Shown piece after piece: positions 2,345-38,203 of a DNA stretch of 64,000 bases; position 1 is the stretch's first letter, and the number at the start of each line of letters is the position of its first letter. This stretch comes from Sphingobium cloacae. Its GTDB lineage: Bacteria; Pseudomonadota; Alphaproteobacteria; Sphingomonadales; Sphingomonadaceae. The stretch is from assembly GCF_002355855.1 (NCBI RefSeq), contig NZ_AP017657.1:1-64000 (forward strand). Direction: 5' to 3'. The notes under the pieces were generated by a model that was not told the origin of the DNA, made no database searches, and was given only the letters and a program-made list of their open reading frames with translations. The position numbers and the translations under genes were made by a program.

Positions 2345-3475
2345 ATGCCACAGGACTACCGCGAAGACGGTCAAGTAGACCTCTTTCTGCCGCAACTGAC
2401 GGCACTGCCGCTTCGCGACCAGCGCGAAACGATGGAACGCCCATTCTTTTCCCTGTCCAAGCGCAAGCGCCTGAAGCCGATCGACTATGTCAGTCCGGAC
2501 CGAAAAGTTACCGTCCATGTTTCGGCCAACTCGGAATATGGCCTCGCCACGATCTACGATCTCGACATCCTGATCTACTGCGCCTCGGTGCTCATCGAAC
2601 ATAAGCGCCGCGGTGCGAACGACATTCCGCAAACCTTGAACGTCGTGCCCTACGACATGCTCAGGACACTCAAACGCGAGGTCGGCGGCCGAGCCTATGA
2701 CTTGCTGGGCAATGCGCTTGACCGTCTGCAGTCAACCACGGTGAAGACCAATATCCGCTCGGGCGACGCTGTCGAAACCACTTTCTCCTGGATCGACAGC
2801 TACAGTCAGCTCAAGGACCGCACGGGCAACGTGCGAGGTATGCGCATCACCCTCGCCAAGTGGTTTTACGACGGCGTGCTGATGGAAGGCGGCGTCCTCG
2901 CGATCGATCCCGCCTATTTCTCGCTCACCGGGGGGAGAGAACGCTGGCTGTACCGGGTTGCGCGCAAGCACGCCGGCGGCGCCGGAACGGACGGCTTCGC
3001 GATCTCCATGCCGACGCTGTTCGAAAAATCGGGCGCGGAAGGTGACTATCGTCGCTTCAAATTCGAGATGACCAAGATCGTCCGGGAAAACGCGCTGCCG
3101 GGTTACGCGCTCGAACTGGAATTGCGCGCAGAGGCCGAACCGTTCCTGCGCATGGTCAGGCGCAACCTCACGAGCGAACCCGGAGCCCCCTCCCCTGCCC
3201 TGGTCCAGACTGCACCCACGCCTGGCCGGGCTACTCCTTCCGCACAAGACAAGGCGATCGACGAACCGCCGATCGCCTTCCCGGAATATGGACATATCGC
3301 CCATAGCGCCTTTGGCGCCATCGCACGGGCCAACCTGCCCGAACCGCAGCGTGACCACGGCATGGTCGCCGACGACTTTCGGTCATTCCTGAGGCAGCGC
3401 GAAATCGCATACGACGCCAGGAACATCACGCAGATCTTCGCAACATTCTGTTCGAAGCAACGCGCGGCGCTGTAG
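2345..3475 (+). CDS. repA: RPA-type plasmid replication initiator, replicon 1
   Basis: Predicted replication initiator that binds the nearby iterons and opens the origin. It is 376 aa and belongs to the RPA (replication initiator protein A) type by its opening block: LPLRDQRETMERPFFSLSKR followed by KRLKPIDY, then YGLATIYDLDILIY and a winged-helix-like region with LTGGRERWLYRVARKHAGG. The same blocks appear in the second initiator at 16744, so the two are homologues. The C-terminal 100 residues are Pro/Ala-rich and probably a linker plus small tail. Start ATG 2345 lies just after the 2310 palindrome. A long perfect palindrome overlaps its stop codon. Confidence 0.93.
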   Translation: MPQDYREDGQVDLFLPQLTALPLRDQRETMERPFFSLSKRKRLKPIDYVSPDRKVTVHVSANSEYGLATIYDLDILIYCASVLIEHKRRGANDIPQTLNVVPYDMLRTLKREVGGRAYDLLGNALDRLQSTTVKTNIRSGDAVETTFSWIDSYSQLKDRTGNVRGMRITLAKWFYDGVLMEGGVLAIDPAYFSLTGGRERWLYRVARKHAGGAGTDGFAISMPTLFEKSGAEGDYRRFKFEMTKIVRENALPGYALELELRAEAEPFLRMVRRNLTSEPGAPSPALVQTAPTPGRATPSAQDKAIDEPPIAFPEYGHIAHSAFGAIARANLPEPQRDHGMVADDFRSFLRQREIAYDARNITQIFATFCSKQRAAL

Positions 3476-28008: not shown

Positions 28009-28685
28009 GCGAGCGGGACGAGTATCGCGAGGAACCGGCAAACGGCGAGGACCCGGCGCTGGCGTTCGAGCGGTTGCGCCGCGAGGTGTCGTTGCTGCGC
28101 CATGCGGTCGAGGCGCTGACCACGGCGCGCGAGTCCATCGACATTCCCGACTATGAGCCGACGCTTGAGCGCACCGAAAAGGTGCTGGGTATCCTGGTGC
28201 AGCAGATCGACGGTGTGCGAAAAAGCCCCGCCATGAGGCTCACCCCGGAGAATATGGGAGGTCGTTTAAACGCTTCTGTCGCCGAGGCGACCCACGAGCT
28301 GCGCGCCCAGGTGCAGGCAACCGACATGGTGCTCAGAGGGGCAGCGCGCGACTTGTCCGATATGGTCACATCGGCGCGGCGGGGTGACGAGCAGAACCGT
28401 TGGCTGTATATCGTGGGTGGCGTCGGTCTGGTAGTGGGGCTGTTGCTCTATACGCTGCTCGCCGGTCCGATCGCGCGGATGATGCCGGCGAGCTGGCTTT
28501 GGCCCGAGCGCATGGCGACGCGGGCGCTTGGCGAAAAGTCGGCATGGGATGCGGGGCAACGTTTGATGCAGACGGCCGCGCCGGAGAGCTGGGGATCGAT
28601 CGTCGCGGCGGCCCCGCTCGCCGATGGCAACCGCGAGGCGGTGCAGGCGTGCCGCAAACAGGCCGAAAAAGCGAAAAGACCGGTG
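28005..28685 (+). pseudogene. DUF6118-like membrane protein, 3' end cut by IS6100
   Basis: The first ~227 residues of a plasmid protein I place, from memory, near DUF6118. It has a charged N-terminal helix (ALAFERLRREVSLLRHAVEA), a central amphipathic region, one transmembrane helix (YIVGGVGLVVGLLLYTLLAG, about residues 135-154) and a periplasmic or cytoplasmic tail. IS6100 copy 2 begins at 28686, so the natural C-terminus is missing and the reading frame runs on into the element. The CGTTTAAACG motif lies inside it at 28263. Confidence 0.72.
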
Positions 28686-35141: not shown

Positions 35142-36448
35142 GCCCGCCTCCTGTGATCGACAATCCCGACGACTCGCCGGACCTGCTGGCGCGCCCGCCA
35201 GCGCGCGGGGCAGGGGTTCGCCGCCTCAACCGCATTCCGCTGTTCATCGTCATCGGGATCGCGTGCGCGGTCCTGCTGTTGCTGGTCTATACGGCTTCGC
35301 AGCGCTCGCGATCGAACATGGCGACGGGCATGGCAGACGACAGCGGCAACAAGGGGCCGGTGGCGTCCAGCTCGCCCCCGCAGCTCGCTGATGCTCCGGA
35401 GTCAGGCGTGATCCCGCCGGCCGTCGTCGGCCCGACGATCGACCCGACGACAGGGGCAGCCGGGGCTCCCGGTGCGCCGCAACAGGTTGTCGTGCGCCAG
35501 CGACCGCCCAATCCCTATGAGCAGGATTGGGCGCGCTATAATCAACAGCGACTCCAAGTGGCGCAGGCGCGCGAAGGCGCGTTCATGTCGGCGCTGAACG
35601 CGCCTACGGGCGTGCAGCTTGCTTCGCAGCGCACCAGCGGGGCCCCCGCCGGAACAGGAGCAGCGCCCGCACCGGCGGGCCTTGATCCAGCAACGCTGGC
35701 CGCCTTCGGCGGCATCCCCGGCGGAGCTGCGCCGAGATCGGCCGCGGCTGCTGGTGGCCTCCCGGCCGACAACGATTCTCAATTCAACGGGCAGGATGCA
35801 AAGCGCGACTTCCTCACGCGGCGGTCGCAAGAGAGCAACTATTCGCCAGCGATGCGAACGGCCGTCGTCTCGCCCTATGAAATGAAGGCCGGCACAGTGA
35901 TTCCGGCGGTAATGATCGGCGGCATCAACTCCGATCTGCCGGGCCAGATTCTCGGCCAGGTCTCCGAGAATGTCTATGACACCAAGACGGGTCGTTATCT
36001 GCTGATCCCCCAAGGGTCCAAGCTCGTCGGCACCTATGACAATTCGGTCACGATGGGCCAAAACCGCGTGCTGGTGGTCTGGAAGCGGGTCATCTTCCCC
36101 GATGCCTCGTCGCTCGATCTCGACATGATGCCGGGGGCGGATCAGGGCGGCTACGCCGGCTTCCGCGACCAAGTGAACAATCACTATGGCAAAATCTTCG
36201 GCAGCGCTCTGATGTTGTCGTTGTTCTCGGCGGGGATTCAGGTTTCCCAGCCCCGCAATAGCAGCATCCTCACAAACCCCGACGTGGGGCAAACGGCAGC
36301 CGGTGCGGTCGGGCAACAGCTCGGCCAGGTCGGCACGCAGCTCATGCAGCGAAACCTTCGTATCCAACCGACGCTGGAAATCCGGCCAGGCTATCGGTTC
36401 AACGTGGAAGTGACGAAAGACCTCATTATCCAACCTTGGCGGCGCTAA
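35138..36448 (+). CDS. trbI: Conjugal transfer protein TrbI (VirB10-like)
   Basis: Predicted channel core protein that spans inner and outer membranes, 436 aa. One N-terminal membrane helix (IPLFIVIGIACAVLLLLVYT, about residues 31-50), a long Pro/Ala-rich periplasmic linker with PPNPYEQDWARYNQQRLQVA, and a C-terminal VirB10 domain: SPYEMKAGTVIPAVMIGGIN, GRYLLIPQGSKLVGTYDNSV and the ending GYRFNVEVTKDLIIQPW. It closes the trb operon, and a terminator-like hairpin follows at 36474. Confidence 0.94.
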   Translation: MSPPPVIDNPDDSPDLLARPPARGAGVRRLNRIPLFIVIGIACAVLLLLVYTASQRSRSNMATGMADDSGNKGPVASSSPPQLADAPESGVIPPAVVGPTIDPTTGAAGAPGAPQQVVVRQRPPNPYEQDWARYNQQRLQVAQAREGAFMSALNAPTGVQLASQRTSGAPAGTGAAPAPAGLDPATLAAFGGIPGGAAPRSAAAAGGLPADNDSQFNGQDAKRDFLTRRSQESNYSPAMRTAVVSPYEMKAGTVIPAVMIGGINSDLPGQILGQVSENVYDTKTGRYLLIPQGSKLVGTYDNSVTMGQNRVLVVWKRVIFPDASSLDLDMMPGADQGGYAGFRDQVNNHYGKIFGSALMLSLFSAGIQVSQPRNSSILTNPDVGQTAAGAVGQQLGQVGTQLMQRNLRIQPTLEIRPGYRFNVEVTKDLIIQPWRR

Positions 36449-36473
36449 GCCCTCGGGTCGCACCGAGCGGGCC

Positions 36474-36505
36474 GGGGCCGGGGGCAACCTCGGCCCCGCT
36501 TTTCG
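36474..36505 (+). terminator. Terminator after trbI
   Basis: GGGGCCG (36474-36480) pairs with CGGCCCC (36491-36497) across a 10-nt loop and is followed by GCTTTTCG. It begins 25 bp after the trbI stop and probably ends the trb transcript. Confidence 0.6.
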
Positions 36506-36602
36506 CCCCGACGATCGACAGCCGGCAGGCGGCCATTGGATATTAACGTTGAAGGCGCTATATAGGGGTCGGCTTCATCGGCGTCGGTCGATGCACCTAC
36601 CT

Positions 36603-36642
36603 GAGCCCGTCGCGCTGTCACGCGGCGGGCTCAAACCTTTTT
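36603..36642 (+). terminator. Strong intrinsic terminator
   Basis: GAGCCCG-T-CGCG (36603-36614) pairs with CGCG-G-CGGGCTC (36621-36632) with one G-T wobble, then AAACC and five Ts. It lies between the trb operon and the tiny minus-strand gene at 36692. Confidence 0.7.
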
Positions 36643-36655
36643 GGGCTCGATAGAT

Positions 36656-36685
36656 GGGGCGGGCGCCCTGTCAGACGCCCGCCCC
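36656..36685 (-). repeat. 10-bp perfect stem after the small peptide gene
   Basis: GGGGCGGGCG (36656-36665) and CGCCCGCCCC (36676-36685) form a perfect 10-bp stem with a 10-nt loop. On the minus strand it starts 6 bases after the stop of the 28-codon peptide gene, so it may stabilise or end that short transcript. Confidence 0.55.
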
Positions 36686-36691
36686 GCTAGG

Positions 36692-36778
36692 TCAGGTTTT
36701 CCGCTGACCCAGCTTCACAATTGCGACCACAAGCGCGAACGCTGCGATCGTCAATTGCACGGCTTCATATGCTGTCAA
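36692..36778 (-). CDS. Tiny hydrophobic peptide, putative holin-like type I toxin
   Basis: A 28-codon gene read on the minus strand from a TTG at 36778 with a perfect AAGGAGGT Shine-Dalgarno (36788-36795) 9 nt upstream. The peptide begins MTAYEAVQLTIAAFALVVAI and ends with a basic tail LGQRKT: one transmembrane helix with polar N-terminus and positive C-terminus. The opening (M-x-x-Y/F-E-A-x-x-L) and length match the short 'putative holin-like toxin' peptides known mostly from Firmicutes. A strong hairpin follows. No antisense RNA promoter was identified, so the toxin role is inference. Confidence 0.6.
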   Translation of the reverse strand: MTAYEAVQLTIAAFALVVAIVKLGQRKT

Positions 36779-36879
36779 ATCGAATACACCTCCTTCGGGC
36801 AGCAGGATTAGCGACGGAAGCTGTCACATCCCATCGCTGCCACCCACGGACGCTATAGCCGGTCAGCTCTCCGTTGCGT

Positions 36880-37018
36880 CCACCATAGTCGGCCGCGCCT
36901 ATGTCGGCCGCCGGCACGCATAGTCGGTTGCGACTATGCTGCAGAGCCTTGGATCGATCGCGGGCCCGCGATCGCGCATAGTCGCCTTCACCTATGCTCG
37001 AGGAATTTCCTCGAGCAC
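36880..37018. repeat. CATAGTCG repeat and palindrome cluster
   Basis: CATAGTCG or its inverse occurs at least four times (near 36888, 36919, 36932 and 36977), including a perfect GCATAGTCG/CGACTATGC inverted pair with a GTTG loop. An 18-bp palindrome, GATCGCGGGCCCGCGATC, lies near 36956. A TGCTCGAGGAA/TTCCTCGAGCA hairpin lies just beyond the 3' end of the zeta gene and may be its terminator. The repeats look like binding sites for a regulator or partition protein. No gene is seen here. Confidence 0.6.
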
Positions 37019-37021
37019 GGT

Positions 37022-38203
37022 CTAGCGGGTGCGCCCCTGGGTCTGCTTCCGGGGATCGGTCACTTTGCCGATCCCGCCGCGATAGCTGATGGTGAGGTTT
37101 CGGCCTTCGGCCAGGTCGGCTGTGCTGCCGGTCAGAAAACGGAGCTGATGGCTGATCTGCTTGCCGTCCACGAGCTGCGTGGCGGTCTTGGCGTCCACGG
37201 CGACGATCGGGCCGGTATAGGTGCCGTCATCCGCCGGGGCCTCGGCCGCCGGCTTCGGGGCGGCCGTAGGGGCGTAGAGGCCCCTTAGAAGTTGCGGGCT
37301 TCGATCTTCGCCAGTTCGTCGGGGTTCGTCGCCAGGCGCTTCGCCGCTGCCGTCAGGCTCGCGTGCCACGCCTTGCTCGCGCGCCGCGATTGGCTGGCCT
37401 CGGGCCTGGCGCTCGAAGTCGTCGCTTCCTCGGCCCTCTCGCCTGATCCGGTGGAGCTGGTCGAATAGTCTCTGCTCGGTCGATCCACGGCTTAGTTCCT
37501 CCTGCCAGTGTTTGAGCCCGTCCCTTATATCATAAGAACGCGGGTTTGTCCGGTCGCGAATATCGTGGATCTCAATCTCCACCCGGTCGCCAAATTCCGC
37601 GTGAATCGCCTCAAGCCCAGCGGGCGTTCCATCTTGAATGCGGGCCATGGTCGCGATCGACGCGCCACGCCCTACCCGCTCGAACCGCCTGAGCGTGTTT
37701 TCAAAAGCGTCCTCGATACGCGGCAGCACAGCCGCGATCGACACGGTAAGCCCCCGATCGAGCGCGCCCGCGATCTTGGCGCGGCTCGATGGGTCGAGAA
37801 GCTGGCCCTCGTAGAGCACTCGCGCGTCGGGAGGCAGGCCCGCCGACATGATAAGCGAAGTCTTGCCCGATCCGGGGGAGCCGGTGACGAAAAGCGCAAG
37901 CCGGCGCGTCGGATCGCGCTCGTCGGCCAACGTGCGCCGAAACTGCTCGGACGCCAGCACCGCAGCCGTATTATGGACGGCGTTGTTGTAACGGCCCCGC
38001 GCAATCGGCGAGGCCGAATATTCGGGGATGATCTCTTTCATGAGGTCGGCGCAGACATAGCGCCCATCGAACGATTCCGCGTGCTGGCGATAGGCGACAA
38101 AGAACGGCTCGGGATCGCGTTCGGCAGCGCACACAACGCGCTGCTCGACTTCGGCCCGGTCGGGGTCGACCGGGTGCGTGATCCGGATCGGCTCTAACGC
38201 CAT
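37022..38203 (-). CDS. Zeta-type toxin kinase with KfrB-like C-terminal domain
   Basis: Predicted zeta/PezT-like kinase of 393 aa. The Walker A motif GSPGSGKTS is at residues 108-116 within LALFVTGSPGSGKTSLIMSA, and zeta-like blocks follow (GQLLDPSSRAKIAGALDRGL, later RRFERVGRGASIATM and EIEIHDIRDRTNP). A linker rich in charge and Pro leads to a C-terminal ~60-residue domain (YTGPIVAVDAKTATQLVDGK, then GRNLTISYRGGIGKV) resembling the KfrB repeat of plasmid proteins. No epsilon antitoxin gene is evident beside it; the overlapping upstream gene encodes a membrane protein. It may act in plasmid stability or transfer. Confidence 0.78.
   Translation of the reverse strand: MALEPIRITHPVDPDRAEVEQRVVCAAERDPEPFFVAYRQHAESFDGRYVCADLMKEIIPEYSASPIARGRYNNAVHNTAAVLASEQFRRTLADERDPTRRLALFVTGSPGSGKTSLIMSAGLPPDARVLYEGQLLDPSSRAKIAGALDRGLTVSIAAVLPRIEDAFENTLRRFERVGRGASIATMARIQDGTPAGLEAIHAEFGDRVEIEIHDIRDRTNPRSYDIRDGLKHWQEELSRGSTEQRLFDQLHRIRREGRGSDDFERQARGQPIAAREQGVAREPDGSGEAPGDEPRRTGEDRSPQLLRGLYAPTAAPKPAAEAPADDGTYTGPIVAVDAKTATQLVDGKQISHQLRFLTGSTADLAEGRNLTISYRGGIGKVTDPRKQTQGRTR

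Follow-up and report, generated by a model that had tools for sequence, protein, structure and literature searches.

A putative type I toxin-antitoxin family with start-site repeats in sphingomonads

A short gene for a membrane peptide lies on the minus strand of the window, the whole 64-kb stretch of Sphingobium cloacae DNA analysed here, and together with its surroundings it is probably a type I toxin-antitoxin unit, with the transcripts and the toxicity predicted. By analogy, its control logic is that of the par/Fst locus of pAD1, here joined to a Hol_Tox-like peptide in Alphaproteobacteria. Comparison of related loci supports the coding conservation, the hairpins, their equal loops, a direct repeat, cognate complementarity and the position of a promoter-like element, and points to a putative new family of peptide-toxin/antisense-RNA pairs in sphingomonads, in which the architecture is kept while the recognition sequences change. 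An earlier note on this DNA had described the peptide gene. That observation is correct, and larger than first described: a 5' UTR hairpin (SL0), a second 3' UTR hairpin (SL2), the direct repeat, the antisense promoter-like element, the equal loops and the chromosomal relatives had all been overlooked.

A short membrane peptide gene is conserved

The coding part of the locus consists of the following elements:

36692..36778, minus strand: toxin-like peptide ORF with a TTG start, 28 codons (28 aa), one membrane helix and a basic tail
36788..36795, minus strand: Shine-Dalgarno sequence (SD) AAGGAGGT, 9 nt ahead of the TTG
36656..36685, minus strand: 3' UTR hairpin SL1, with TGACAG in its loop (36666-36675)

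The earlier note had claimed a 28-codon ORF with an SD nine bases before a TTG start, a single membrane helix with a basic tail and a 10-bp stem right after the stop, and all three descriptions are borne out. The AAGGAGGT octamer has a single copy on both strands of the 64-kb window, namely the SD of the peptide ORF. The hydrophobic core comprises residues 7-21 (mean Kyte-Doolittle 2.61) and is followed by K22, R26 and K27, and the stem, SL1, begins 6 nt past the stop codon and has 10 bp, or 13 bp when U-G pairs count. The window locus has the short hydrophobic peptide gene that is expected of a type I toxin-antitoxin system.

For comparison among relatives, close copies were collapsed to one representative ahead of the tests, and 14 loci were treated as distinct locus types (the window, L002, L003, L027, L028, L048, L049, L050, L052, L065, L066, L079, L080 and L081). 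When codons 2-24 of nine loci were compared in all pairs, 212, 141 and 369 substitutions fell at the first, second and third codon positions, a coding pattern. The start codon is TTG in nine of the 14 locus types, ATG in three (L049, L080, L081), GTG in L028 and, by our own reading of the sequence, CTG in L065. The suspicion that this is a real gene skipped by gene finders is upheld: start region, SD and frame are conserved, and none of ten annotated plasmid relatives with an intact peptide has a CDS covering it, as judged from the PLSDB gene table, which is incomplete. At one relative (L009) an annotated CDS terminates 5 nt within the peptide ORF.

Relatives occur on plasmids and chromosomes of sphingomonads

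A blastn search with positions 36450-37030 matched 24 of 72,556 plasmid records, two of them (H23, H24) over the 3' part only. The hosts of all 24 belong to Sphingobium, Sphingopyxis, Sphingomonas, Novosphingobium, Tardibacter or Rhizorhabdus, and 23 of the records are typed as conjugative or mobilizable. Eleven of the 24 were fetched; the same peptide, which the earlier note had proposed to seek in other sphingomonad plasmids, is intact in ten, and the start, ribosome-binding site and peptide, whose lack of conservation would have spoken against a gene, are conserved in relatives. The eleventh record, L004 from S. macrogoltabida (coordinates identical in H24), has a remnant at 2980-3125 with SL1, SL2 (loop word TCACAG in both) and a broken ORF; by eye, SL0 and the opposite-strand promoter are both absent from it. 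We treated L004 as decayed and excluded it from the duplex, repeat and promoter tests.

Among genomes, a peptide search found 12 of 150, all of a single genus and among them the window's own, which has the peptide in one copy; a scan of genome contigs gave 21 peptide loci that overlap with this set. Among 396 genomes of the order, a protein search returned eight at E <= 1, among which the window's own genome, G072, G442 (L027) and G356 (L028) are real by anatomy, and four places (L029-L032) in frames of 227-459 aa were set aside. When a nine-row profile was run against 397 genomes of the family, 27 places in 26 genomes came up at E <= 0.1. The best 11 of these 27 are the peptide or distant relatives, ten with the locus and the remainder a second place of G562; the 16 weaker places (E 0.006-0.1, frames of 122-877 aa) were set aside. 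Loci in sphingomonads occur on plasmids as well as on chromosomes. At class level, a sample of 385 genomes gave the peptide in the window's own genome alone; since this sample holds few sphingomonads, the result says only that none was seen outside sphingomonads.

Searches of other collections yielded little. A scan of viral contigs gave 66 pattern matches with no relative of the locus among them, and phage records had no match to the L027 region. A tblastn search of plasmids with the 28-aa peptide gave one record at E <= 10, the query being too weak to be useful, and Rfam returned nine matches up to E 10 over 36300-37300, every one under its gathering score.

The peptide resembles Hol_Tox

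The sole Pfam match of the window peptide is Hol_Tox (PF16935), over profile positions 1-23 of 34, at 17.1 bits against a gathering cut-off of 23.3. The holin-like pattern seen in the earlier note stands as a resemblance, and a sibling peptide (L066, 24.8 bits) passes the cut-off; family membership of the window peptide itself does not follow, as it stays under the cut-off and six-frame Hol_Tox searches did not return the window locus, its genome giving one unrelated weak place. Other peptides score 19.1 (L002), 17.2 (L003), 18.0 (L027), 17.4 (L049) and 18.3 bits (L065), and those of L028 and L048 have no Hol_Tox match. None of ten shuffled peptides matched any Pfam family, and NCBIfam had no match for five peptides. 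In 14 control genomes the Hol_Tox model gave matches in 11 at E <= 10 and in five at 0.05, with two over the cut-off both times: sub-threshold matches are common.

A search of 296 genomes of the order with the Hol_Tox family gave three loci above the cut-off (L079-L081, 24.6-25.9 bits), and its weak matches L082-L084 were set aside. These three Hol_Tox-like peptide loci lie between infB-like and rbfA-like genes: by our own reading of the translations, the downstream ORF encodes RbfA and InfB ends upstream, at a greater distance in L080. They have twin 3' hairpins with matching loops and a direct repeat, and the design is therefore not confined to plasmids. With the L080 peptide as query, 147 genomes yielded the L081 and L079 loci alone, so that this infB-rbfA branch is uncommon.

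The same antisense control could also serve a peptide that is no toxin, such as a small regulatory or structural membrane peptide needed at low dose, for example in conjugation or entry exclusion. This reading gains from the fact that the toxicity of the peptide is a prediction, from the place of the window ORF beside a T4SS operon (VirB8, CagX, TrbI), and from L079-L081, which between infB-like and rbfA-like genes have no plasmid to maintain. We nevertheless consider it unlikely. In the fetched plasmids, hypothetical, Fic, DUF3768 or DUF4942 genes make up most of the neighbours, which gives no constant partner in transfer; Hol_Tox is the one Pfam family that the peptide resembles; and par/fst, as passages on that locus describe it, likewise covers a non-ATG start (GUG) by antisense.

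Hairpins within a locus mostly have matching loops

Under the toxin-antitoxin reading, which we prefer, the elements around the ORF are read as follows:

36852..36857, minus strand: putative toxin -10 element TATAGC, weak and lacking a good -35, picked by eye
36810..36838, minus strand: 5' UTR hairpin SL0, loop TGTGACAGC
36760..36794, minus strand: direct repeat copy 1, spanning SD, start codon and codons 2-6
36602..36633, minus strand: second 3' UTR hairpin SL2, loop GTGACAGC, followed on the plus strand by AAACCTTTTT, likely the antisense terminator
36570..36602, minus strand: direct repeat copy 2, next to SL2 on the 3' side; its complement would be the 5' end of the antisense RNA
36536..36564, plus strand: antisense promoter-like element TTGGAT-N17-TATATA (-35 at 36536-36541, -10 at 36559-36564)
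36571..36645, plus strand: predicted antisense RNA of about 75 nt with the repeat complement, the anti-SL2 hairpin and a U run; ends predicted

A complete locus runs from a weak promoter through SL0, SD, ORF, SL1, SL2 and repeat copy 2 to the opposite-strand promoter-like element. In L080 and L081 a long predicted hairpin that encloses the SD takes the place of SL0, and the SD is clearly sequestered in an intramolecular stem in their predicted folds; in L081 this hairpin is near-perfect. In the window fold the SD has a pairing probability of 0.57-0.80, and the value varies among the other loci.

SL0, SL1 and SL2 mostly bear one loop word per locus, and the word varies between lineages. All three hairpins carry TGACAG in the window, L003 and L048, TCGCAG in L002, and TAGCAG in L027, L028, L050 and L052, although in this TAGCAG group SL0 is a poor simple stem and is missing from the predicted fold of L027. 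L066 has the words TGGCAG, TGGCAC and TGGCAT. SL1 and SL2 have TAGCAG in L079 and CTGCAA in L080 and L081. There are two exceptions: in L049, ACCAG is common to SL0 and SL2 and SL1 differs, and in L065, TGGCAG is found in SL1, SL2 is broken and SL0 is not recognisable. Most words follow U-N-R-C-A, from which CTGCAA and ACCAG deviate. The UNR loops are present in the mRNA hairpins, and a U run is found on the antisense side only, with none after SL1 or SL2 on the sense strand.

In 10 of 12 lineages, the apices of SL1 and SL2 have 6 or more consecutive nt in common (2 nt in L049 and 3 in L065; in L079 and L081 the run takes in stem bases). Because the lineages are related and the apices were chosen by eye, the permutation counts are not exact probabilities, yet the mean run is 6.50 for cognate against 3.58 for non-cognate pairs, with 1 of 200,000 permutations as good, or 0 of 200,000 when L081 is left out. 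For SL0 against SL2 in seven lineages the corresponding means are 7.86 and 4.67, and 5 of 5040 permutations did as well, the number expected from ties among three lineages with an equal word. At least one compensatory double change was seen in 9 of 26 SL1/SL2 pairs (10 sequences), and the covariation term is small (-0.16 kcal/mol). The sequence TTGACAG at the start codon was considered as an extra copy of the loop word and dropped, as it does not track the loop in L002 or L027.

GC-rich stems between convergent units, here a trbI-like gene on the plus strand and the peptide ORF on the minus strand, could in principle serve the plasmid as transcription terminators or as a binding element for a protein, with the small ORF incidental. 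We regard this as very improbable, given that the ORF has a codon-position pattern, that the loop words change jointly per locus, something a fixed protein site would not require, and that the direct repeat tracks the SD and start codon.

The complement of the direct repeat is predicted to pair with its own start site

On the 3' side of SL2, the sequence repeats the SD, the start and the first codons in direct orientation and in diverged form; the best repeat alignments of all loci lie 71-133 nt past the stop. When scores were compared with 2000 dinucleotide shuffles, 0-8 shuffles reached the repeat score in 13 of the 14 loci (none in seven loci, 4 in the window, 1 in L028, 2 in L065, 8 in L066, 3 in L079 and 2 in L080), and L049 failed with 152.

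Duplexes were computed between the repeat complement and the start region for eight lineages, with L027 standing for the four TAGCAG-type loci and L079-L081 left out. The mean energy is -40.2 kcal/mol for cognate and -27.4 for non-cognate pairs, and among the 40,320 permutations the identity assignment ranks first; when the SD core is taken out, the means are -29.6 and -18.2 and the identity assignment still ranks first. Every antisense row (8/8) has its own target as its best partner, and the cognate antisense is the best in 6 of 8 target columns, or 7 of 8 without the SD core. In a separate run of nine loci, none of 100,000 random permutations equalled the identity assignment when the whole antisense segment was used, and 2 of 100,000 did so with the repeat on its own; with six representatives, identity again came out as the best of 720. 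Among the four TAGCAG-type loci themselves, non-cognate duplexes are about equal to cognate ones. This complementarity and its cognate specificity are what would be expected of a locus encoding an RNA complementary to the toxin mRNA. As in par/Fst, direct repeats are found both at the start and in the predicted antisense RNA (13 of 14 loci), and all eight rows are cognate-best.

Just upstream of repeat copy 2, a TTG-N16/17-TA element on the opposite strand is found in 13 of 14 loci and is missing in L048; in seven loci its form is TTGG[AT][AT]-17-TATATA, and the spacers have diverged. Scored singly against the E. coli consensus, the promoter-like elements are equalled or exceeded by 38-695 of 1000 shuffles, 38 being the best case. 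Support for these putative promoters is their conserved position, not single-sequence strength. Repeat copy 2 would be transcribed first from this element, and the predicted antisense RNA would therefore cover the initiation region; its predicted duplex with the 5' part of the mRNA has -63.7 kcal/mol. The putative antisense RNA now has sequence evidence in the conserved opposite-strand element, the repeat and lineage-specific co-variation.

SL2 with repeat copy 2 mirrors SL0 with SD and start, and tandem duplication of the toxin gene is therefore a plausible origin of the 3' half, but that this half is now a decayed, functionless remnant is the least credible of the readings considered, as a dead copy would drift, yet in all eight lineages the complement has its own start region as best partner and the opposite-strand element is in register in 13 of 14 loci, and gene conversion, which could keep the copies alike, would leave the promoter-like element unexplained.

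Proposed mechanism and comparison with known systems

For the type I toxin-antitoxin unit we propose the following scheme, in which both transcripts and their ends, the promoter strengths, the RNA lifetimes, the kissing step, the toxicity and the stabilisation of the plasmid are predicted. A weak promoter would give a short mRNA for the membrane peptide, translated from TTG, and the convergent promoter would give the antisense RNA of about 75 nt. First contact would be made by kissing of the antisense hairpin loop with the UNR (U-turn-like) loops of the mRNA hairpins. Pairing would then spread until the antisense 5' end, complementary to the direct repeat, lies over the SD, the start codon and the codons next to it, which would keep ribosomes off and leave the duplex open to RNases. 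Upon plasmid loss, the antisense RNA would decay first and the peptide would damage the membrane, resulting in plasmid addiction.

The closest likeness is to par of pAD1, for which passages of PMC7472228 describe convergent RNAs, direct repeats DRa and DRb that let the antisense RNA cover the SD and start, a U-turn loop that begins pairing, and a non-ATG (GUG) start; the convergent RNAs of our locus are predicted. The differences are several. The window peptide has no proline, and hence lacks the PXXXG motif that the same source gives for Fst toxins, and resembles Hol_Tox instead. Two 3' hairpins and one 5' hairpin here have one loop word, whereas in par, as described there, pairing starts at one shared terminator loop. 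Repeat copy 2 lies beyond the 3' hairpins, and the host is alphaproteobacterial. The Fst family is called ubiquitous in Firmicutes in a passage of PMC10903887, and PMC7472228, where it treats the wider Fst/Ldr toxin superfamily, counts it in Gram-negatives too.

Two Bacillus subtilis systems, txpA/RatA and bsrG/SR4, likewise combine a small membrane toxin with an antisense RNA whose pairing takes place at the mRNA's 3' end, according to passages of PMC6562991, and bsrG/SR4 has a loop-loop contact with a U-turn motif. In these systems, as far as those passages go, 100-140 bp of 3' complementarity drives decay, with a conformational change at the SD in bsrG/SR4; the locus described here would block initiation directly, through a separate repeat with complementarity to the start region. 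Membrane type I toxins are described only in Proteobacteria and Firmicutes in the relevant passage of PMC8309996. Judged from titles, abstracts and passages, the open-licence literature yielded no type I toxin-antitoxin system of sphingomonads; in the parts consulted of one toxin-antitoxin paper, the single mention of Sphingobium is in a table listing protein pairs, VapC/VapB and ParE/ParD for example.

One loop word, mostly U-N-R-C-A and in up to three copies per locus, might together with the start-site repeat form an address code, both shifting together by lineage, and several loci could therefore share one cell without cross-silencing; we hold the arguments for and against such a code to be evenly balanced. 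In the consulted part of PMC7472228, variation of DRa and DRb is credited for the non-interference of two par loci. We found two loci per genome in three genomes, and the loop words differ each time (TCGCAG with TGACAG twice, TAGCAG with CTGCAA): L035 and L042 in Sphingobium lactosutens DS20, whose assembly (G004) is estimated to be 8% contaminated, L034 and L043 in Rhizorhabdus histidinilytica, and L028 and L080 in G356. If the address code is real, plasmids with different codes would be separately addictive, the loci would be a natural set of orthogonal RNA switches, and they could be one reason why sphingomonad plasmids persist. Par-type start-covering repeats in Alphaproteobacteria, with a different peptide, would then be a convergent or very old shared design.

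Flanking sites upstream of the toxin promoter

The product of the gene at 37022-38203 on the minus strand, which reads towards the peptide gene, combines a zeta-toxin-like part (Pfam, 29.4 bits) with a KfrB domain at its C-terminus (Pfam, 36.4 bits). Between this gene and the toxin promoter lie three palindrome-like sites CATAG[TG][CG]GnnnnCGACTATG, at 36884-36903, 36919-36938 and 36977-36996. Counted over both strands, this pattern has seven matches against 0.22 expected, with one elsewhere, at 28136, and the palindromes are probably operator sites for a plasmid regulator. Upstream of the toxin promoter, L003, L027, L028 and L052 have by eye an inverted repeat like TTCACGAnAAnGTGAA; the window has no such repeat and has the CATAG palindromes at that place instead. 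The putative control sites upstream of the toxin promoter therefore seem exchangeable.
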